Shown here in pieces: positions 43,610 through 58,296 of a stretch of 64,000 nt of DNA; the first letter of the stretch is position 1; each line of letters opens with the position of its first letter. The position numbers and the translations under genes were made by a program. The notes under the pieces are model-generated. The model searched no databases. It had not been told where the DNA came from and worked only from the letters and a program-made list of their open reading frames with translations. Origin of the DNA: Pseudomonas viridiflava. GTDB lineage: Bacteria; Pseudomonadota; Gammaproteobacteria; Pseudomonadales; Pseudomonadaceae. Where the stretch lies: assembly GCA_900596015.1 (NCBI GenBank), contig UVIF01000012.1:1-64000 (forward strand), in the 5' to 3' direction.

Positions 43610-43718
43610 TCCCACAGAAAAATCTTTTACGCACCCTCAGGGAATTGCGTGCGCTCATGCGTCTTAGCCTGACTGATTGGTATTCGCATTTTCGCGCACT
43701 TCCTGGGGTACGACCGCA

Positions 43719-46139
43719 ATGGCAAGGCAACTCAACCATGAATCCAGCATCGACAACCGCTGGCAGCGCAACGCGCTGGGCACCGCATTGGCGTGCACAC
43801 TGCTCGTCGGCGCACTTCAGGCTCATGGCGCGCAGGTCCATTCGGCGGCGACGTCCGTAGAGCGGCTGTCACTCAATATTTCCGCGCAGCCCCTGCGTCA
43901 GGCCTTGCTGCAGTTCAGCCAGCAGTCCGGCCAGAACGTGCTGCTGGACGGCAACCTGGACAGCGCCCTGCGCAGCACTGCCGTACAAGGCCGCTACTCG
44001 TCGGAAGAGGCACTGGCGAAGTTGTTGCAGGGCAGCGGCTACACCTTCGCCCGAACCGATGCCATGACTGTTTACCTGGTCCCGGTGCAGAACACGCAGG
44101 CCAGCAGCGAAATCCTCCTGGCGCCCACGCAGATCCAGTATCAAACCTCCGGCGACGTCAGCCCAACCCGCGGTTACCGGGCAAACCCCGTGTCCAGCAC
44201 CACTCGCCTGGGCCTGAGCGACAAGGAAACCCCGCAAGCGATCACCGTGATTACGCGCGAGCAGATGGACGACTTCCAGCTCAACAGCGTGAAAGACGCA
44301 CTGCGCAACGCACCGTCGGTGACCGTGGAACAGTTCGAAACCGATCGCACCGCCTTCACTTCACGTGGTTTCAAGATCGAAAACTTCGAGTTCGACGGCA
44401 TGAGCCTGCCGTTCTCCGGCGGCGTATTGGTCGGCGATCAGGACATGACCGAGTTCGAGCAGGTCGACGTGCTGCACGGCGCCAACGGCCTGATGAGCGG
44501 CACCGGCGATCCGTCTGCCACGGTCAACCTGGTGCGCAAACGCCCCACGGACACGTTCCAGGCGCGGGTCGACAGCAGCGTGGGCTCGTGGGACAACCGC
44601 CGCTTGAGCTTTGACGTGTCAGGTCCACTCAGCGAAAGCGGAAACGTTCGCGGACGCTTCATCACCTCCCATGACAAAGGCAACTCCTACCTCGATCAGT
44701 ACGGCCATGAGGTCAACGTCGCGGCCGGCCTGCTGGCTTTCGACCTGTCCGATGCCGACACCCTCACGGTAGGCTTCACCCAGCAGAACAGCTACTCCAA
44801 TGGCAGCACCTGGGGCGCCTTGCCCATCGCCGATTACCAGGGCAACCGCATTCACTACAGCAGCCGCAGTTCCAGTGTCGGCCAGCCGTGGACCTACTGG
44901 GACGTGCACACCCAACGTGCCTTCGCCGAGCTGACCCACGCGTTCGACAATGGCTGGACCAGCACCCTGACCCTGGCCGGAATGAAGCAGGATTCCGACA
45001 CCAAGATGTTCTACGCCATCCCCGCCACCGCGGACCAGGCATACGGCTATATCAACCGTACCACCAGCAAGGAAGAGCAAGTCACCGCCGAAGCGAAACT
45101 GTCTGGCCCCTTCGCGCTGTTCGGCAGGGAACATGAACTGACCCTGGGCGCCAACTACGGCCGCACCCACCACGACGAGGTCGGCCATTACAAAGACGCA
45201 TCTGGCAACCAAATGGTGAGCCTGGCCGACGCGCTGTCCGGCAACGTCGTGCAACCGCCGCTGAACTACACCGACGACCTCAATACCCAGCTGTTCACCG
45301 ACCGACAAAAGAGCCTGTTCGCCGGCGCGCGCTTCAGCGTCATCGATGACCTGCACTGGATTGCCGGCGCGCGCATGCTCAGCGCCGACGGCGATGGCGC
45401 CGGCTACGGATCGCCCCACGACACACGGGTGCACGGCAAAGTGACCCCGTACACCGGCCTGGTCTACGACCTCACCCCACAGTGGAGCCTGTACACCAGC
45501 TGGACGAAAATCTTCAAACCGCAATACCTGCGCAGCACCAGCGGCGGCTTGATCCTTCCGCTCGAAGGCAAAAGCCTGGAAGTGGGTGTCAAAGGCCTCG
45601 TGCTCGACGAGCGACTCACCCTCACCGCTGCCGCGTTCAAAACCGATCAGCAAAACGTCGCCGAGCTCACCGGCGAAATCGTCGGTGGCCAGTACCTGTA
45701 CCGCGGCACCAACGTCAAAAGCCATGGCTTCGAACTGGGCGCGTCGGGAGAAGCACTACCTGGCCTGGACATAGCGGGCGGCTACACCTTCGTGCAGATC
45801 GAAGACGACAACGGCGACGACACCCGCAAATACATTCCCACCCACACCCTGCGCGGCAGCCTGACCTATCGCCTGCCCGAGATGCCCAGCGTCAAGGTGG
45901 GCACCCGTTTCCAATGGCAGAGTGCAACCGAGGTCGACACCAACAGCAACGTGCGCCAAGAGGCTTACGCGCTGGTGGACTTGATGGCCAGCTACGACAT
46001 CGACGATAACTGGAGCACCTCGCTGAACCTCAACAACGTCACCGATCGCAAGTACTTGCTGTCGCTTTATCAATCGTCCGGGTCGACCAACTATGGCGCG
46101 CCGCGCAATTTGACGGCGTCGGTGACGTGGAAGTATTGA
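43719..46139 (+). CDS. TonB-dependent siderophore receptor with signalling domain
   Basis: An 806-residue outer-membrane receptor. After a signal peptide (LGTALACTLLVGALQAHGAQ) comes an N-terminal STN signalling domain (SLNISAQPLRQALLQFSQQS, about 45-125), then the plug with the TonB box region and VITREQMDDFQLNSVKDALR, then a 22-strand barrel ending in NLTASVTWKY with the usual terminal aromatic. ATG 43719 is chosen over TTG 43677 by signal-peptide position. The STN domain and adjacent sigma/FecR genes define a cell-surface signalling system. The upstream IroE-like esterase suggests a catecholate ligand. Confidence 0.93.
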   Translation: MARQLNHESSIDNRWQRNALGTALACTLLVGALQAHGAQVHSAATSVERLSLNISAQPLRQALLQFSQQSGQNVLLDGNLDSALRSTAVQGRYSSEEALAKLLQGSGYTFARTDAMTVYLVPVQNTQASSEILLAPTQIQYQTSGDVSPTRGYRANPVSSTTRLGLSDKETPQAITVITREQMDDFQLNSVKDALRNAPSVTVEQFETDRTAFTSRGFKIENFEFDGMSLPFSGGVLVGDQDMTEFEQVDVLHGANGLMSGTGDPSATVNLVRKRPTDTFQARVDSSVGSWDNRRLSFDVSGPLSESGNVRGRFITSHDKGNSYLDQYGHEVNVAAGLLAFDLSDADTLTVGFTQQNSYSNGSTWGALPIADYQGNRIHYSSRSSSVGQPWTYWDVHTQRAFAELTHAFDNGWTSTLTLAGMKQDSDTKMFYAIPATADQAYGYINRTTSKEEQVTAEAKLSGPFALFGREHELTLGANYGRTHHDEVGHYKDASGNQMVSLADALSGNVVQPPLNYTDDLNTQLFTDRQKSLFAGARFSVIDDLHWIAGARMLSADGDGAGYGSPHDTRVHGKVTPYTGLVYDLTPQWSLYTSWTKIFKPQYLRSTSGGLILPLEGKSLEVGVKGLVLDERLTLTAAAFKTDQQNVAELTGEIVGGQYLYRGTNVKSHGFELGASGEALPGLDIAGGYTFVQIEDDNGDDTRKYIPTHTLRGSLTYRLPEMPSVKVGTRFQWQSATEVDTNSNVRQEAYALVDLMASYDIDDNWSTSLNLNNVTDRKYLLSLYQSSGSTNYGAPRNLTASVTWKY

Positions 46140-47461: not shown

Positions 47462-47743
47462 ATGGCTGCACTATTAAGTCGAGCTGAGCTTGCCGTTTCC
47501 GCCACGGCTCTGGTTCGTAGCTTTAGCGCGCACTTGAATGACATCACCAGTGGCGACATCTCGCATTTGGTGGTCTTCAAGGACAACGAGCCAGCCGCCG
47601 TACTGATAGGCATTGACGCCTACCAAACCCTGCAGGATGAGCTCGAAGATCTGCGTTCTGAGCTGCTTGCCATCGAGCGCCTGGCTAGCGTTGAGAACGA
47701 CGTTACCGTGAGCCTCGAAGACATGGAGGCCCGGTTCAATTAG
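47462..47743 (+). CDS. Phd/YefM-family antitoxin
   Basis: A 93-residue type II antitoxin. AELAVSATALVRSFSAHLND and HLVVFKDNEPAAVLIGIDAY form the DNA-binding Phd/YefM fold; the C-terminal helix LASVENDVTVSLEDMEARF would wrap the toxin. It ends three bases before the RelE-family toxin frame, which is broken. Intact antitoxin with dead toxin repeats the state of the HigBA locus. Confidence 0.83.
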   Translation: MAALLSRAELAVSATALVRSFSAHLNDITSGDISHLVVFKDNEPAAVLIGIDAYQTLQDELEDLRSELLAIERLASVENDVTVSLEDMEARFN

Positions 47744-47746
47744 GTA

Positions 47747-48038
47747 ATGAAGATGAAGGACTGGACTATTCGGCTTCATTCATTGGTACAGACAGACCTC
47801 AAGCTGCTGGGCAGTGCTAAAGCCAAGAGAGTCCTGAAGGTCATCCGCGAGCGTAGTGCCGAGGGGAGAACTACAAGATCGACAAGGCCTTGCGCTGACT
47901 ACTGGCGGATATCGCCGGATCCGGACGGGTGATGTCCGTATCGTCTACCGCATCAACGGTACTGAAATCATCCTGGTCGTGTGCGTAGGTGCCCGACGTG
48001 ATGACGAAGTCTACGACGCCGCAGTAAGAAGGGTGTGA
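47747..48038 (+). pseudogene. RelE/ParE-family toxin, frameshifted
   Basis: The first frame reads MKMKDWTIRLHSLVQTDLKL and VLKVIRERSAEG, then loses homology. A second frame gives ENYKIDKALR (like the family's EPDKIGKALR), and a third gives GYRRIRTGDVRIVYRINGTE to the normal end. Two single-base losses explain this, one in the G run at about 47862-47866 and one at about 47893-47896. Full-length toxin cannot be made. Confidence 0.82.
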
Positions 48039-48044
48039 ACCCAG

Positions 48045-48465: not shown

Positions 48466-48503
48466 AAACAAAGGGCCTGCATCGCTGCAAGCCCTTGTTT
48501 TTT
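48466..48503. terminator. Terminator hairpin next to the tRNA-like fragment
   Basis: acaaagggc-ctgc-atc-gctgcaa-gcccttgttttttat forms a strong stem with T residues on the plus side and A residues (T on minus) on the other. It stands where the terminator of a minus-strand tRNA gene would be, directly beyond the tRNA 3'-end copy. Confidence 0.7.
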
Positions 48504-48526
48504 ATGGTGCGGCACCAGGAGTCGAA
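48504..48526 (-). repeat. Imperfect copy of tRNA-Thr 3' end, candidate attachment-site remnant
   Basis: tatggtgcggcaccaggagt followed by cgaa matches the 3' end of the intact tRNA-Thr gene (58219-58243) except for one missing C and one A/G change. It has the same orientation as the tRNA. A direct repeat of a tRNA 3' end at the far side of foreign DNA is the usual mark of integrase-mediated insertion. Confidence 0.65.
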
Positions 48527-48937: not shown

Positions 48938-51900
48938 CTACTCGTTTAGCTCGCGTATCCGAGTAAGTGGATGACATGTAGGCGCATGCCTCAAGCCGGT
49001 TTTCAGGAATGTAAAACATTTCTTTGGCAACGATTGATATCGCGCAACCAAATTAGTTTTATTAATTTCCTCGTCTATATTTGACTTTGACTTTTTGAAG
49101 GTGGGTATCACATCAAGATGATCGAGAAGGTTCTGCATGGACTCTTGGTCCCTAAGGATGTTGCGAATTAAATCTTTATCCTGTTCTCCTATTCGGTTCG
49201 TAGTGCCGAAGAGCGCGTCCTCACTGATATCTTTTCCACAGATAACATTTACCTTTACAGCTTCATTCATCGCACTTTTTAGAAATGTTTCGATGTTTCT
49301 AATTGCATTAGATGTGTATAAAATTGTGCAGATGTCAATTGATTTTAATTTTTTCAAGTTTGATATCAAGGTTTCCCTGTGTTCGACTGGGATTAGGAAG
49401 TTATTTGATTTGGATTTGGTTTCTATGCCCGTCAAGTAAAAATTCATTGAGGAAATTATTTGCGATCCCGTGATGATTGTGTCGGTTATAAGAGTTGCTC
49501 TTTCGGAGTCAATTGCGATACTTGCCGGAGAGAGACTCTCGATACTACGGCCAATATCGTTGTCCTTAAATAATACTCGATGCGTACCATTGTAGTCGCC
49601 GATGTGCTTTATAAGAAAAGGGTTGCTACCTTCTTCACTTAGTAAATGTTCGACTTTTTTTGTGAACTTAAAGATGTCCTCTTTATGCATCACTGTATGA
49701 GCAGATATTAATGTTACCAACGCTTGGTGGAATTTTTTTGGCAGGGAGCTAAGCCACTGTACTAAATTGGAATGCGCATCGGTTTTGGAAATGTCTCGGT
49801 GTATTGAAACTACATCAACGGCAGAGCTAAAGCCATTTAAGGACAATATACTTTTTTCGTCAAAAATAGTAGTTGGGTAGCTTTTGAAGTGATTTCCTTT
49901 GGAGGAATAAACGTCCAGTCTGCTTGTGACAGATTTATATATTTTACTTATAAAGCTGTGCATGGCTGCAATATATATTCCGGACGAGTCCTCGTAGAAA
50001 TAAACGTGCTCAGACGAGCTTATAGCTATGGAGTGTTTCGTCTCAAATTGATGAATTTCATTCGTTGTCATGTTAACTAGCTGTATCATGTTGAATGGAT
50101 GATCTTTTCCATCGAAATGTAATGACTCGCTGATTGGAGAAACTATAGGTCTGATGCGCTTGAATTGAACTGTGTCTAAAGTTGAAGTTTCGGAGCTGTG
50201 CCGCGCTACAAGTTCGCAAAAGTTCTTCCTGTATTGCTCAATATCGGTATGAAGATATAAAGCTAACGAAGGGATCACTGTTGTAGGGATTAATTTTAAA
50301 GCTGTTTCTATAGTGTTTAATAGATGTATTGGTGTGCTATCAGTGGGGGTCGTGCTTTGATCGATGGCGTATATATGACGATCACTGTTCTTTTGATTAA
50401 AGCGATGGTATTGATCAACAAATTTGTCGATTCTTCTTGCCGGCTCAGTTTCGTCGATCGAGAGATATAGAGCGGCCGCCGCCGCTAAGTCAAAGTAAAA
50501 CGGATCCTCAGATCCATTTATTTCTTCAATCTGTAGTAGCAAGTGTTTTATAAATTCGACAGCGTCAATAGTTTCGACCAAGTTGTCAATATACTTGTCT
50601 TTAATTATAAGTATGTTGGCGTCGTAGCTTGAAGTAGATCGAAAGTAACTTTTAATAAAGTTTTTCTGGTTGTTGATTAGTGTCTCAATATTTCCGTCCC
50701 TATCTTCAAGTATTATTGTTCTTGAATTTACAAGTTCTTGGCTGAAGGGCAATAATGTATTATCGGTAAGTAGTCGATCATTACAGAATATGTTGGGGTA
50801 CGCCCCAGAGCCTCTGCACACATTTATTATGTCGAGGAGCTTTTTTAGCTTTTGCCCTGTGGTCTGTTCTGAAATTGTTTCGGTCAAGGTTTTTAGACTT
50901 TCCGGTGTATAATCGACAACTATTTCACTATAGCCATTGTGTTCGTTTAGAGGAGTACTTGTTGAGTGAAAATTAGTGGTTGGTTTCCTGAAAAGAATAG
51001 ATCTTTCTCTTTTTAATACAATCGAACTGTTTTCGATAATATTTTTTTCAAACCATGACTTATTCGTTGTCGGAAATATTGATGTCTGGTCTTTGTCTAT
51101 AAGCCATTTGTAGAAATCGGCTTTATCTTTGAGTTCGTCAAGTGCTTTCTCAATGCCTGCGCTTTTAATATCGTTGTCTTGGAGCGTTATGTATATTAGT
51201 AGAAGGCTGTGGAATTTCTCAAAAATCTTTCTTTTGTCAATAAGTCCGCGAAATATATTACCGTCAACAATTGTTGATATTAGAAGTAGTGCGTTATCTT
51301 GGCTGTATTCAATGTCGCTTATTTTTTTGAACCAGTCAGGTGCCCTGTGAGCTATTTCTGTCTCATAGGTATTGAATATATGCGCACAATATTTCCACGA
51401 ACTTCTCAATAGATCGGTGGACTTATTTTTGCTGGATATAGAGAACAGGCATAACAGGTAGTAGTATTTGGACGCCGTTGAAGGAGCACATATCTCTGGG
51501 GGGGAATCTATCGATAGTTTGCCATTTCTTTCATCAGTCGAAAGTTTTGCATAGAATGTAGCAGCTAGATCATTGAGATCTTTACGTTCAGTTCTCGAAC
51601 TAGCACAGAGGGGGTATATAGCCTCAATGAATCTTGGTAATTCTTTTATATCGTTCAGGGCGGTGTTGAGCTGTTCGACTAATCTTGTATTTATTTCTAG
51701 GCTTTCATTCTCTGGAAGGCTTATTAAGCAATTTATTATATGTGGTGAAGGGATATCCTTTAAGTTAATTTCCACGCCAAAAACTAACGCTAGGTAGGTA
51801 AGGTTTTCATTGGTTAACTCAGATTTTGATAATTTTTTCTCAAGTCGAATTATCAGTTTTTTAAGATCGTCTGAAGTTGACTTGCTAGACTCAAGTGCAG

Positions 51901-54283
51901 TTATAAGGCTCGCAGTGAATACTTCTGATTGAAGCTCGTCTAGGTGATCTACTGACTCTAGCGCGTCCCAGTTTTCGGGTGAATCTAAGACAAAATTAAA
52001 TAAGTGTTTATATAGACTTCCCCTTCCAATTTTGGCGTTCAGTGTGGGTTCAACCTTTTCTCTTTTTAATGGGTCAAGGGTTGGTACGCCTGCCAAATGG
52101 GAAAATATAAAGGCCAAGTCATCATTGCAGCTGTCTGACTGAACGAGTTTAATGAACTCATTTATTGCTAGATTTTTTTGTGTAGTAGTCGAGTCAGCAA
52201 AATTTCTTGAGACTCTGTCAACAGCATACTTTGATTGAGAGCGATAAGTGTTAAAGTCCTTGGAGAAATGTCTTATTTTAGTAATGCTGGTTTTTTCATT
52301 GTTTATATCTAGTCCTAGCAATTCGAGTTCTGCACGAAGCATTGCAAGTGCTGATTTGGCAGAATCTTCGGAGGGGGCGATAATAAAAATATCATCTACA
52401 TAACGTTGGTAGAGCTGAATTTCTTCTAGTTGCAATTTCGAGTCGAGGTTTAGATCAAGATTATCAAGGTATAGCTCTGCTAAGTACCTTGCATAAGCTG
52501 GGCCTTGAGGCAAGCCAACTTTTGAGTTAACAACTCTTTCCGTTATTTCAAAGAGTGTATCAATGTGCGATTGGTACGAGCTTTTTGATTCTACTGATAA
52601 CTCAATTAGCTTCGCGTCGATCCGTGGATTAACGCCTCCAAGTAACATCCTTTTGAGATTGTCATGAGGTATAGTATCGTAGAAACTTTTTATGTCTGTT
52701 TTAAGGATGTAATAGTTTTGGTTGTCTGGATCTTCGATTGCGCTGCTTATGTTAGATACGAATTTGATCCATAGATACAGCCATGGCTGAAATATGTAGC
52801 CGTCACTAAACCCCTTGTTTGGTTTGTATCCGTGGGAGTTGCTGCTTGGGGGGATATTTAAAAAATAAATCAGTTGCTTCAATATGCAAGAGGTTGCAAT
52901 TCTTTCAGGCGCTTTCAGCGTGATGAGCGTTCGAACTTTGTTCTGTTCGTTCCGTAGATGCTTATAAAATTCTGCTGATTTAGGGTTTTGTATTGCTTTA
53001 TTTACTAGGGTTAGTAAGCGATAGCTATCGGTGGAAGACAGTTCGTTTATTACCACTTTTGACTGAGCTTCGTCGTTTAGAAATAAGTAGCTAAGCTCGG
53101 CTGTTTTAGTTATTTCAATGTCGGATTTTGATATCTCAAATGTGGCGTCTGTAAAATGCGTGTATGTAGGAATACAAGCCTTTATCAGATCTTCGACTGT
53201 TAGTGAACTAGTAAATTTTACATTCGTAGTGTTTTCTATTTGTTCTTGTGATGGAAAATTGAACGATGATAGTTTCTTTATCGATCGAATTGTTATCTCA
53301 GGATTGTAGTTTTCACTCTTGCTAAATATATCTATCAGGATTTTTTGTCCTGCATCTTCTATATTTTTCGCTTTGATGTTGTAGAGCATGCCTACAAGAA
53401 GTTTTCTTTCCTCGTGGTTGAGATTTCCGCCGTCTATTATTTTATTGCCTAGAGTATGGAGCGGCAAGTGATCTTTCCAGTGTGCCTGCAACATTTCCAG
53501 TGTGAAGCCGTTGTTTCGTATTCCTATTGATTTTATTCTTGCGGGGCGCAATGTTTCATCATGAGTGAAGTTGAAAATAACCCCTAAGATCGTTTCTAAT
53601 TCAGATTTGCTTGTGCTTTTATGTTGTTTTAGAATTTCTAGGCTAGTGTTTATAGTTTCGCTATCAAGCTCTGTGGTTTGTTTGAATGTGCCAAGTTCCG
53701 ATTGTGTTTTTAATAACACAGCATAACGCTTTGATTTGGTATGTTTTGAAAGTGGAACCTTTACACCTAGTCCGGTGCCGTCTGTTGGAGTGCCTGAGCT
53801 CGGAAAAAGGTCTACTCCTATCAGGTCTTTATTATAGAAAAGTTGTGTGCTCTCGATCAAAGCCTGTTGGATTTCGTAGCCTGTACGATAGCTTGTTTTC
53901 TCTTTGAATGTTATCCAAACGTGAAAGCCTCTGTTTCCAGAGAACTCAAGTAGATACGGCACATTTAGTTTGCTAAGTTCTGTGCAGAAGCTATTGACCG
54001 CGCGCTCAAGCTCAGCTTGTGCAATCGGCCTGAGCTCATTCTCTAAATTTTGTTTTGAAATGTCGAAATCAAAACAGATCCATTTGATTGTTAGGTCGTT
54101 ATTTTTTTGGTAAATTGCAAGTGATCCGGAAGTACTTAAAGTCTTCTCCAAAAGTTTTTTTGTAACTGCGCCAGGTTTTCTCCTGTACTTTCCATCAGGC
54201 TGATGCTGTGCGTGGGAAGCCTGATCTGTGGCGAAAAATTCATGTAGTAGCGCTGCTAATTCGTTCAAAATAGTCGACTCCAT
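48938..54283 (-). CDS. Giant primase (AEP) - reverse transcriptase - phosphoribosyltransferase-like protein
   Basis: A 1781-residue AT-rich gene, start ATG 54283, no frame breaks. Residues 1 to about 200 form an archaeo-eukaryotic primase module: FDFD at 71-74, SGNRGFHVW at 115-123 and GLGVKVPLSKH at 171-181. A reverse transcriptase spans about 430-720: motif A KTDIKSFYDTIPH (Asp 530), motif B GLPQGPAYARYLAE from 590, catalytic YVDD at 628-631, then LGLDINNEKTSI. A long helical region follows. Near 1598-1608 LITDTIITGSQ resembles the PRPP loop of phosphoribosyltransferases. UG/Abi reverse transcriptases act in phage defence; from memory the UG10 (DRT7) lineage has PrimPol and phosphoribosyltransferase parts. 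Domain calls rest on motifs seen here; the defence role is inference. Confidence 0.9.
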   Translation of the reverse strand: MESTILNELAALLHEFFATDQASHAQHQPDGKYRRKPGAVTKKLLEKTLSTSGSLAIYQKNNDLTIKWICFDFDISKQNLENELRPIAQAELERAVNSFCTELSKLNVPYLLEFSGNRGFHVWITFKEKTSYRTGYEIQQALIESTQLFYNKDLIGVDLFPSSGTPTDGTGLGVKVPLSKHTKSKRYAVLLKTQSELGTFKQTTELDSETINTSLEILKQHKSTSKSELETILGVIFNFTHDETLRPARIKSIGIRNNGFTLEMLQAHWKDHLPLHTLGNKIIDGGNLNHEERKLLVGMLYNIKAKNIEDAGQKILIDIFSKSENYNPEITIRSIKKLSSFNFPSQEQIENTTNVKFTSSLTVEDLIKACIPTYTHFTDATFEISKSDIEITKTAELSYLFLNDEAQSKVVINELSSTDSYRLLTLVNKAIQNPKSAEFYKHLRNEQNKVRTLITLKAPERIATSCILKQLIYFLNIPPSSNSHGYKPNKGFSDGYIFQPWLYLWIKFVSNISSAIEDPDNQNYYILKTDIKSFYDTIPHDNLKRMLLGGVNPRIDAKLIELSVESKSSYQSHIDTLFEITERVVNSKVGLPQGPAYARYLAELYLDNLDLNLDSKLQLEEIQLYQRYVDDIFIIAPSEDSAKSALAMLRAELELLGLDINNEKTSITKIRHFSKDFNTYRSQSKYAVDRVSRNFADSTTTQKNLAINEFIKLVQSDSCNDDLAFIFSHLAGVPTLDPLKREKVEPTLNAKIGRGSLYKHLFNFVLDSPENWDALESVDHLDELQSEVFTASLITALESSKSTSDDLKKLIIRLEKKLSKSELTNENLTYLALVFGVEINLKDIPSPHIINCLISLPENESLEINTRLVEQLNTALNDIKELPRFIEAIYPLCASSRTERKDLNDLAATFYAKLSTDERNGKLSIDSPPEICAPSTASKYYYLLCLFSISSKNKSTDLLRSSWKYCAHIFNTYETEIAHRAPDWFKKISDIEYSQDNALLLISTIVDGNIFRGLIDKRKIFEKFHSLLLIYITLQDNDIKSAGIEKALDELKDKADFYKWLIDKDQTSIFPTTNKSWFEKNIIENSSIVLKRERSILFRKPTTNFHSTSTPLNEHNGYSEIVVDYTPESLKTLTETISEQTTGQKLKKLLDIINVCRGSGAYPNIFCNDRLLTDNTLLPFSQELVNSRTIILEDRDGNIETLINNQKNFIKSYFRSTSSYDANILIIKDKYIDNLVETIDAVEFIKHLLLQIEEINGSEDPFYFDLAAAAALYLSIDETEPARRIDKFVDQYHRFNQKNSDRHIYAIDQSTTPTDSTPIHLLNTIETALKLIPTTVIPSLALYLHTDIEQYRKNFCELVARHSSETSTLDTVQFKRIRPIVSPISESLHFDGKDHPFNMIQLVNMTTNEIHQFETKHSIAISSSEHVYFYEDSSGIYIAAMHSFISKIYKSVTSRLDVYSSKGNHFKSYPTTIFDEKSILSLNGFSSAVDVVSIHRDISKTDAHSNLVQWLSSLPKKFHQALVTLISAHTVMHKEDIFKFTKKVEHLLSEEGSNPFLIKHIGDYNGTHRVLFKDNDIGRSIESLSPASIAIDSERATLITDTIITGSQIISSMNFYLTGIETKSKSNNFLIPVEHRETLISNLKKLKSIDICTILYTSNAIRNIETFLKSAMNEAVKVNVICGKDISEDALFGTTNRIGEQDKDLIRNILRDQESMQNLLDHLDVIPTFKKSKSNIDEEINKTNLVARYQSLPKKCFTFLKTGLRHAPTCHPLTRIRELNE

Positions 54284-54395
54284 AACTAAGTCTAAAACGG
54301 TATTTGGATATTTATTTTGTCAAGGTTACGTGTGTCGCCTTGACAGAAAACATCATGTTCGGATCGTGCTGCATCTATGTTTGGTTTTTTTAAGC

Positions 54396-54743
54396 TCATG
54401 CAATGTGTGCCCCATGAATAAGTATGCTTATCTCAGGTAGGCTATTTAAACTATGTTTTTTAATCAGCTTTTCAAACGGGTTCTTTTGACCAAAATAGAG
54501 CGCTAGAGCTTCCTTGTAGAAATATCGAGCTTTACTAAGGGCGTCTACGAACGCAGAGGAAGCTAAACAAAACCAAATAATTACGCTGCAATACTCCATC
54601 TCGGCAATACTACTGAGTCCCCCCTCTTTTCTGAACAGAAGGACAAGATGTATACAGGTGCTTCTCGTTTTGGGGGGAGGGGTAATATACCTAGCCATAT
54701 ACACTTTCTCGGAAAAAAGTTTGATTATCATACTGCAACACAC
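54396..54743 (-). CDS. Hypothetical island protein
   Basis: A 115-residue frame just upstream of the reverse-transcriptase gene on the same strand, in AT-rich DNA. The N-terminal third may not be translated; an internal Met (MEYCSVIIWFCLASSAFVDA) starts a more protein-like stretch with KARYFYKEALALYFGQKNPF. No family recognised. It overlaps the next frame upstream by 16 bases. Confidence 0.35.
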   Translation of the reverse strand: MCCSMIIKLFSEKVYMARYITPPPKTRSTCIHLVLLFRKEGGLSSIAEMEYCSVIIWFCLASSAFVDALSKARYFYKEALALYFGQKNPFEKLIKKHSLNSLPEISILIHGAHIA

Positions 54744-55255
54744 CGCGGTCTATTTTGCGAAGGCTGCCATCTTCGAAAGTTAGGCGTAGCGGCAAACCGA
54801 TCTATTATTTTTAGTCCGTTGGGATGTTTACACGCCCACCTCCCGTCTTTAGACGTGCAGAAATCTTCTCTGAAGATTCTTCTTTTGTAGGAGGAATCGA
54901 CGTTTGAGTTGCGGATTAGTTCGACTTGGTTACTCAAGCATCCTAGGGGCCGCTCGTTGCTCACGTCTAAGAACTTAATTCTTGCAAAAACGTGGAATTC
55001 CAATCGGTGGTGTGGCTTGGTTTGGACATGTGAGAGTTCTGAGGTGGTGCAGCGTTTCTTTATGAGCTTATTCTTATCATACAACTCCAGCTTGCTGAAG
55101 AAGTAGGCTTGAACTTCATTGCCGCCGACGTACACGCTCTCGTCCATTACGCGCTCTATCATAGTCGCCCAGCTTTTTACTTCCGTCTGGGTATTGTGAA
55201 TGTGCGGGTTTATTGGGACCGCCCGTGACGTCTGATTTGGACGTCTCAATGCCAA
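54728..55255 (-). CDS. Hypothetical island protein
   Basis: A 175-residue basic frame; the likely start is the internal Met at MIERVMDESVYVGGNEVQAY or the first Met. It contains KLELYDKNKLIKKRCTTSEL, HRLEFHVFARIKFLDVSNER and KRRIFREDFCTSKDGRWACK. Two Cys residues in the last block are spaced by nine residues, which is not a clear zinc site. No family recognised. It runs in the same direction as the reverse transcriptase. Confidence 0.4.
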   Translation of the reverse strand: MALRRPNQTSRAVPINPHIHNTQTEVKSWATMIERVMDESVYVGGNEVQAYFFSKLELYDKNKLIKKRCTTSELSHVQTKPHHRLEFHVFARIKFLDVSNERPLGCLSNQVELIRNSNVDSSYKRRIFREDFCTSKDGRWACKHPNGLKIIDRFAATPNFRRWQPSQNRPRCVAV

Positions 55256-55515
55256 GGGCTTTCATCCTGAGCGTCCCCATCTTTAACCCCACGGTGCCAC
55301 ATATGTGGAGGCAATCCTAGCACTGCGTGATATCAAAATAGAGGCAATCATTCGGATTTTTCTGAGATCAAAGGCGTTCGCTTGAGTCAGTAGAGAGGCA
55401 TCGCTTAGCGACGCGTGAATAGCCCCTGACTTCGTCGACAACGTGATTGCCCGGTTGGCGTCAGGCAGTGAAGGGGGGGAGCCATCGTGTGAGCATGTGT
55501 TGACGTGGACTGTTT

Positions 55516-55876
55516 TCACGGTCTCACCCGTGGCATTTCCTGCCGGTTTCTCCTTTGTATGGAATGGTCAACGCTATGTTTACCATTGATGCCGACCTCG
55601 CCTCTCGCTATGAACTGCCATGGTATGGCTAGGCGGAGAGCGAGTAGATTCATGGTCAGCAGATAGTAATAGCGCGTCGACTCAGCGTGCTGATTCAAGT
55701 GCTGATTTAGAAACCAGTCGAGATGCTTTCTCTGCCAGTTCCATGGTATTTCGGTTCCAGCGATCAAAAATCGCCTCTTGAATGGCCTTTGCCTGGCGAA
55801 GGTGACGCTTGCGTGTGGCATGCGACACGCTCAGCACCCCTGTCAGAAAAATCTCCATATCGAATGGCTTGCTCAT
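55516..55876 (-). pseudogene. Integrase-associated small protein, frameshifted
   Basis: From ATG 55876 the frame reads MSKPFDMEIFLTGVLSVSHA and RHLRQAKAIQEAIFDRWNRN, then another frame continues PWNWQRKHLDWFLNQHLNQH and AESTRYYYLLTMNLLALRLA. Together they form one protein of a type often found directly after this integrase in pseudomonads. The shift lies at about 55741-55750, near ccatggtatt. The ATG overlaps the integrase stop by four bases. Confidence 0.7.
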
Positions 55877-57315: not shown

Positions 57316-57553
57316 AGGTTGGCGCAATGAAATGACCAAGCGGATAGGTTGCTGCAGGGCAGCTATGAAAGGGGGAAGTTGCCGCAGTGGGCACACTGGT
57401 AAATGTAGGCATCCATCACATCGCTGTGACCGTGCGAGCCGCCGGACGCTAATCGCACTTTGGGAGAACCACCACGGTGTGGCGTAGCCTTAAAGGTTCT
57501 GGCTACCTGGGTTGCTGTCAACGACAGCGCTTTGCCCGATCTTTTCTATGCCT

Positions 57554-57718: not shown

Positions 57719-57845
57719 TCCGCATGCACAAGCCGATCACCGAGATATGAAGACCGAGCGCTTACTCAGTTGCGTCACGTTTTGCTTTAAGGCGAGTGAC
57801 GTTCGCTCCGGTATGGTTCGCGAACTCAGGAGGAGTGACATGCTC

Positions 57846-58112
57846 CTACTGGTTGGCCTCCAGGTACCGGCTCCGCGAGTTCATGATCAGCCTGCGCTTC
57901 CCAATGTTCTCCCAGATGCCGTGCTTGAGGTCGAACTCGTTCAAGTGTGCGAAACGCAATTCGATGGGGCACACGAACATGTAAAGCCATGGTGGGCTTT
58001 CGTGGGGACTGTGGTCGCAGTTGTAGGTGCGCAGCGTTTGCGTGACGGTGGGAAGGGAGTATTTGATAGGGGCTTGGAGCGGTGGTGACTGAACCGACGC
58101 TTTCGTGGCCAC
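57846..58112 (-). CDS. Possible hypothetical protein or gene fragment
   Basis: An 88-residue minus-strand frame. The second half looks protein-like (WLYMFVCPIELRFAHLNEFD, LKHGIWENIGKRRLIMNSRS), while the first 30 residues read REP-like DNA and are doubtful. No family recognised. It could be the remnant of a longer mobile-element gene. Confidence 0.3.
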   Translation of the reverse strand: MATKASVQSPPLQAPIKYSLPTVTQTLRTYNCDHSPHESPPWLYMFVCPIELRFAHLNEFDLKHGIWENIGKRRLIMNSRSRYLEANQ

Positions 58113-58208: not shown

Positions 58209-58220
58209 CTCGTCAAACTA

Positions 58221-58296
<76 letters not shown>

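Follow-up and report, generated by a model that had tools for sequence, protein, structure and literature searches.

The window analysed here, a whole stretch of 64,000 nucleotides of Pseudomonas viridiflava DNA, contains an island of about 9.7 kb (9,716 bp from repeat start to repeat start) at a tRNA-Thr gene, and the sole recognised cargo of this island is one very large gene (Table 1). As the original prediction had stated, this gene is intact, with one uninterrupted open reading frame that has an ATG start, 1781 codons and a lone terminal stop. The PADLOC profile RT_UG10_large spans residues 6-1780 of the encoded protein with 1879.8 bits, a full-length match and the best among the UG families, followed by RT_UG10_small with 362.3 bits and then by the next family, RT_UG19, with 112.2 bits. 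Among Pfam families, RVT_1 (62.5 bits) and AEP-TOTE (59.4 bits) each exceed their curated cut-offs; these scores and that of RT_UG10_large lie far outside what chance would give. The NCBIfam matches to Drt2, Drt3a, Drt4, PrimPol_Msp and group II maturase are all below theirs. A search of the source genome returned a single match.

Table 1. Features of the island and of the protein that it encodes (positions in the window)
Feature	Position	Strand	Basis
Left attachment repeat (24 nt), duplicating the tRNA-Thr 3' end with one base missing and one mismatch	48503..48526	+	
UG10_large / DRT7 gene, 1781 aa, intact	48938..54283	-	Single ORF and profile match
PRTase-CE-like domain, about residues 1491-1697	49193..49813	-	Pfam PRTase-CE matches in 3 of 5 members, this one included, with 2 relatives above cut-off; weak structural match
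PRPP-type loop ATLITDTIITGSQ, residues 1596-1608	49460-49498	-	Motif position
Middle region, mostly helical, residues 901-1480, without reliable assignment	49844..51583	-	Low-confidence model
Alpha-helical repeats following the RT, residues ~683-900, DRT4/DRT6-like	51584..52237	-	Structural alignment
Reverse transcriptase domain, about residues 380-680 (D530, YVDD 628-631)	52244..53146	-	RVT_1 above cut-off; 6ar3_A, Z 22.1; tree
AEP Prim-Pol domain, residues 4-238 (FDFD 71-74, SGNRGFHVW 115-123, D158)	53570..54274	-	AEP-TOTE above cut-off; 7nqf_B, Z 26.0; invariant residues
Tyrosine integrase, 328 aa	55873..56859	-	Pfam Integrase_1 above cut-off; counterpart in 4 of 5 same-site islands
radC RNA (RF01754), upstream of integrase	57409..57542	-	
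Second-integrase remnant	57765..57986	-	Four of five related islands have it at full length
Right attachment repeat, 25 nt, covers the tRNA-Thr 3' end	58219..58243	+	
tRNA-Thr (TGT), integration target	58221..58296	-	

The tRNA-Thr site and its cargo

The tRNA-Thr site is empty at two loci (L041 and L042), where the left flank runs into the tRNA with an overlap of 25 nt, and it is occupied by islands in five other genomes (L044 to L048), in all of which the repeat occurs twice, in L048 by a shorter 17-nt match. The L046 island is peculiar in having left-flank sequence beside both repeat copies. Counterparts of the 328-aa integrase, with 76-84% identity, are present in four of these five islands and absent from L047. 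The second integrase, which we take to be P4-type, is full-length in L044 (the query), L045, L047 and L048, whereas L046 (58 residues) and the window have just a remnant of it; the islands of the window and of L046 have lost this enzyme.

None of the five other islands at this site carries a DRT7-type gene. Their cargo, as sampled by PADLOC on ten chosen proteins and by Pfam on ten rather than from every ORF, consists of Hachiman HamA/HamB in L047, which is the only strong match to a well-known defence system among the five; CARF6, ORC-CDC6-like, PRTase-CE and DNA methyltransferase genes in L046 (1463-6824); a ThiF protein with weak E1-E2 matches in L045; a UvrD-like helicase and a protein kinase in L044; and, in L048 (5094-8285), a 1063-aa protein with a C-terminal PRTase-CE domain and a P-loop ATPase region recognised by eye. 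The presence of several different defence-like cargoes at one site supports a defence role for the window gene independently of its family name, and the tRNA-Thr (TGT) site is likely a place where defence cargo is swapped, a hotspot, in this genus. The four-gene set of L046 looks like a separate defence system.

The base composition of the DRT7 gene also sets it apart from its surroundings, its GC and GC3 both being 38.5% against a GC of 59.5% for the window and a GC3 of 81% in one adjacent gene (43677-46139). Taken with the island setting, this composition fits the horizontal transfer that had been proposed for the gene. Upstream of it lies a 1.6 kb stretch (54284-55872) that is AT-richer than the host and has three short ORFs with no Pfam match; it may hold decayed genes or regulatory sequence. 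Just outside the island (47462-48040) there is a Phd/YefM-like antitoxin gene, with a Pfam match below the cut-off, followed by what appears by eye to be a broken RelE-type toxin frame.

Domains of the 1781-residue protein

The motifs that had been read from the translation, namely FDFD, SGNRGFHVW, D530, YVDD and the PRPP-type loop, all lie exactly at the residues first given. An AlphaFold model of residues 1-900, built with ten sequences, has a mean pLDDT of 84.5. In this model residues 4-238 match the CRISPR-associated Prim-Pol 7nqf_B with Z 26.0 over 218 residues at 2.4 A, so the AEP/PrimPol-like module passed the structural comparison on which the original prediction had staked it. D72, D74 and D158, which we take to be the catalytic acids of Prim-Pol, show no variation in the ten aligned rows. 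The protein has the fused AEP Prim-Pol with intact catalytic motifs expected of DRT7 / UG10 large. In the window protein and its nine aligned relatives this domain is N-terminal, whereas the excerpted text of PMC12596737 describes a C-terminal PrimS domain in DRT7.

The second module is a reverse transcriptase (RT). D530 sits in KTDIKSFY (528-535), and D530, D630 and D631 are again invariant in 10 of 10 aligned rows. The structural matches to residues ~380-685 of the model are group II, DGR and DRT enzymes (6ar3_A, Z 22.1). Behind the RT there is an alpha-repeat domain, a trait of class 1 UG RTs, and the longest alignments covering both RT and repeats among the matches listed are to DRT6 (9wy8_A, Z 17.4 over 387-887, 428 residues) and DRT4 (9vdo_A, Z 16.7 over 387-891, 427 residues), with AbiA, AbiK and AbiP2 close behind at Z 16.6-16.9 by the structural aligner; Foldseek also supports these folds.

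In a tree of 19 RT rows, the ten UG10 rows form one side of a branch with support 99/98, and the window RT adjoins that of the Shewanella protein with support 99/99. The other side of the UG10 branch consists of nine bacterial RTs, two of them UG17 and seven best matched by a general RT profile, and one of the nine (L008) has a very long branch. This tree contains neither Abi RTs nor known retrons, its only DRTs are UG10 and the two UG17 rows, and it is narrower than a full UG/Abi placement. The refutation test that the original prediction had set on the placement of the RT was also passed, by UG10 membership in profile and tree. A group II intron maturase was rejected, TIGR04416 scoring 72.7 bits against a cut-off of 300, and a retron RT was set aside by profile rank alone, the 19-row tree having no labelled retron.

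The long helical stretch noted behind the RT is alpha-repeat-like to about residue 890, and from 901 to about 1480 it falls in a low-confidence model. The model of residues 841-1781, built with six sequences, is poor (pLDDT 57.4), and none of its 364 Foldseek matches reached E 0.001 or better. CRM1-like proteins gave helical matches to it, the best at Z 8.1, a level that the aligner calls common. Pfam HTH_55 at residues 1459-1504 stayed below its cut-off.

In regards to the C-terminus, the last 332 residues match Pfam PRTase-CE (PF24390) with 15.1 bits, below the 27-bit cut-off, and the same region exceeds that cut-off in two relatives, from Shewanella (L012, 28.3 bits) and Sulfurovum (L019, 28.7 bits). 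In the Bacteroidales and Bacillota C-termini, two of the five members scanned, the family was not reported at E up to 1. The loop of the window protein reads TDTIITGSQ and departs from the rule of two acids followed by (S/T)G, the second acid and TG being present and the first acid absent. Across the five full-length large members the first acidic position is T, T, S, A and G, and the second acid (E in one), the (T/S)G and the Q are kept in all five. D1563, N1565, G1566, H1568, G1606 and Q1608 are invariant in the same five.

The structural match for this domain is weak, with two uracil phosphoribosyltransferases aligning to the tail of the pLDDT 57.4 model (5e38_C, Z 5.2, model 691-852; 1i5e_A, Z 4.9, 651-857). 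A custom PRTase-CE profile made from 20 sequences of same-genus genomes covered the loop in all five UG10 C-termini, yet its best score was 9.2 bits against 11.9 for shuffled sequences (n=1000), and it is not counted as support. When profiles were compared with a single PRTase-CE protein, the alignment spanned no more than the 18 columns of the loop, at E 0.17, and a PDB sequence search with the C-terminal profile gave a best E of 0.61. An invariant NGxH motif common to PRTase-CE was considered and rejected, as a similar string occurs in only one of the 20 sequences. The C-terminus is probably a diverged PRTase-CE-like domain, moderately supported by these comparisons and of uncertain catalytic capacity. 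Of the proposed UG10/DRT7 assignment with PrimPol and phosphoribosyltransferase parts, the name and the PrimPol hold, and the phosphoribosyltransferase part is tempered to a moderate match whose loop has no first acid.

Relatives and rarity

In the genome collection 35 stretches fit the search pattern and 11 encode a relative. RT_UG10_large is the best profile for L019, L012, L011, L016 and L013, RT_UG10_small for L014, L015, L017, L018 and both pieces of L021, and PrimPol for L020. Full-length identity to the window protein is 45% for L012, 24% for L019 and 25% for both L011 and L016, making the Shewanella protein (L012) the nearest relative found. The truncated L013 protein (1147 residues) was used for the tree and for aligning the N-terminal and middle parts, and was kept out of the five-member full-length and C-terminal alignments; L020 (Prim-Pol match only), L021 (two frames) and L023 (incomplete at the record start) were excluded from alignments and tree. 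The Shewanella gene adjoins, as judged by eye, a tyrosine-integrase-like gene (L012, 15326-16657) and may also be cargo of a small mobile element.

The UG10_large profile found only the source genome among 398 genomes of the same genus (E 1e-40), among 369 of the same class (E 1e-60) and among 398 of the same phylum (E 1e-30), counts that cover the large form, with small-form genes left out, and that come from overlapping samples. Plasmid records gave one partial relative (E 1e-30), on a Peribacillus plasmid and incomplete at the record start. Phage records gave none at E 1e-10, and in viral contigs 48 and 4 stretches fit a peptide pattern with none encoding a relative. A phage or viral origin was rejected on these searches, with no relative in phage records and none confirmed in viral contigs.

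A candidate DRT7 defence protein and its proposed mechanism

The profile match over residues 6-1780, the invariant catalytic acids, the domain folds, the RT tree and the island site with its other defence cargo together lead us to read this gene, on sequence evidence and with a probability of roughly 0.7, as a DRT7 (UG10, large form) system in which a single protein would act against phage. The family is not new. UG10 was named in 2014 (PMC4244168, in the text excerpted), and a primase fused to UG10 RTs had been published by 2021 according to passages of PMC8934634, so the novelty that the original prediction saw in a protein able both to prime and to copy was overstated. The 2026 DRT3 preprint PMC13174585, in its excerpted text, describes class 1 UG RTs as RTs fused to alpha-repeats, with template-independent synthesis in those studied, and cites three DRT7 preprints (Kim 2025, Figiel 2026 and Song 2026). 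The commentary PMC13213688, again in excerpt, calls DRT7 an RT-primase-polymerase fusion for which preprint evidence indicates protein-primed, protein-templated synthesis of poly(A)/poly(T)-rich DNA. No solved DRT7 structure could be recognised by name among the 13 sequences matched at E 0.01, and the term PRTase-CE was not found in the literature searched, a set that includes neither the UG/Abi survey of 2022 nor those three preprints.

Following those preprints, second-hand through the commentary, phage infection would lead the RT to use a residue of its own chain as the primer and to extend it, with no nucleic acid as template, into an A- or T-rich DNA strand. The Prim-Pol fused to it would then help make the complementary strand, and the protein would end up linked to a palindromic duplex of poly(A)/poly(T)-like sequence; this division of labour between RT and Prim-Pol is our own suggestion. 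By comparison with other DRTs, such duplex DNA might harm or arrest the infected cell, or soak up phage replication factors. The weakest step concerns the PRTase-like tail, which would most likely bind a ligand, either a nucleotide or something PRPP-like, and serve as regulator or effector. The preprints may concern distant or smaller DRT7 members, the nearest relative found being 45% identical, and the excerpted text of review PMC13314766 has the DRT7 mechanism under investigation, which counts against this explanation.

The tail could alternatively be the main effector, an active PRTase-CE that is switched on by the DNA and alters the nucleotide pool or makes a signal. The above-cut-off matches in two relatives, the six invariant residues and the PRTase-CE genes or fusions in two of the five other same-site islands all speak for such an activity; however, the first acid of the loop is replaced in all five members, the window score is below the cut-off, two of the four other members go unreported, the custom profile does no better than shuffles, and the small UG10 form has no tail region at all. 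We consider it unlikely. A more elaborate version, in which DRT7-large would be a three-enzyme pathway in one chain where RT and Prim-Pol build a protein-borne DNA signal and the C-terminal PRTase-CE then modifies a nucleotide, seems less likely still, and no DRT mechanism tabulated in the excerpted PMC13213688 works as a three-enzyme pathway with a PRTase-CE output.

A further alternative is an RNA-dependent DRT7 homologue, whose RT would copy a nearby non-coding RNA as in DRT2, DRT3a and DRT9 and whose Prim-Pol would make the second strand. The 1.6 kb gap between gene and integrase, where no gene is recognised, would suit an RNA gene, but the same excerpt lists DRT4 as template-independent and DRT7 without RNA, and it is to DRT6 and DRT4 that the RT and repeats align longest among the matches listed. 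Moreover, Rfam at gathering scores yields the radC RNA and the tRNA alone between 46000 and 60000, and the flanks of the gene have no significant similarity to those of the Shewanella relative; on this non-exhaustive search for a partner RNA we regard such a partner as very unlikely. Least probable is a role in replicating or repairing the island instead of defence, for although AEP primases are common on mobile elements and this one has an integrase and the remnant of a second, UG10/DRT7 is a named defence family and the five same-site islands, four with the same integrase type, do without such a gene and carry other cargo including Hachiman.

Under the DRT7 defence reading, the window gene provides a fresh intact orthologue, 45% identical to the nearest relative found, of a system whose mechanism is unsettled and rests on preprints according to the reviews, as excerpted. 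It should help to define the residues that determine the DNA product and the function of the PRTase-like tail, the latter being the one point of interest that the gene leaves. The tRNA-Thr site is likewise a useful marker for further defence cargo in the genus.

Comparison with known systems places the protein within an established type. The CRISPR-associated Prim-Pol of Marinitoga (CAPP) has a similar Prim-Pol fold (Z 26.0) and CART-CAPP resembles the protein in its RT domain too (Z 18.6), but the profile of the window protein belongs to UG10; of six window proteins scanned with Pfam, none is a CRISPR protein. DRT4 (UG15), DRT6, AbiK, AbiA and AbiP2 have the RT plus alpha-repeat architecture in common with it, and to our knowledge lack both the Prim-Pol and the PRTase-like part. 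PRTase-CE (PF24390) is shared as a C-terminal domain, above cut-off in two relatives among the five UG10 members scanned, and differs in the first acid that the UG10 loop lacks and in the window match below cut-off. The UG10 small proteins (ORFs of 834-881 aa) have the Prim-Pol, the RT and the start of the repeats, form sister rows in the RT tree, and lack everything from about residue 900 onward. Finally, the full-length UG10 large relatives in Shewanella (45%), Sulfurovum, Bacteroidales and Bacillota have the same whole length and domain order, and no structural difference from them could be shown; what sets the window protein apart is a new host and an identity of at most 45% to the relatives found. 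The window gene is thus another rare, intact member of the DRT7 type already described rather than a new kind.
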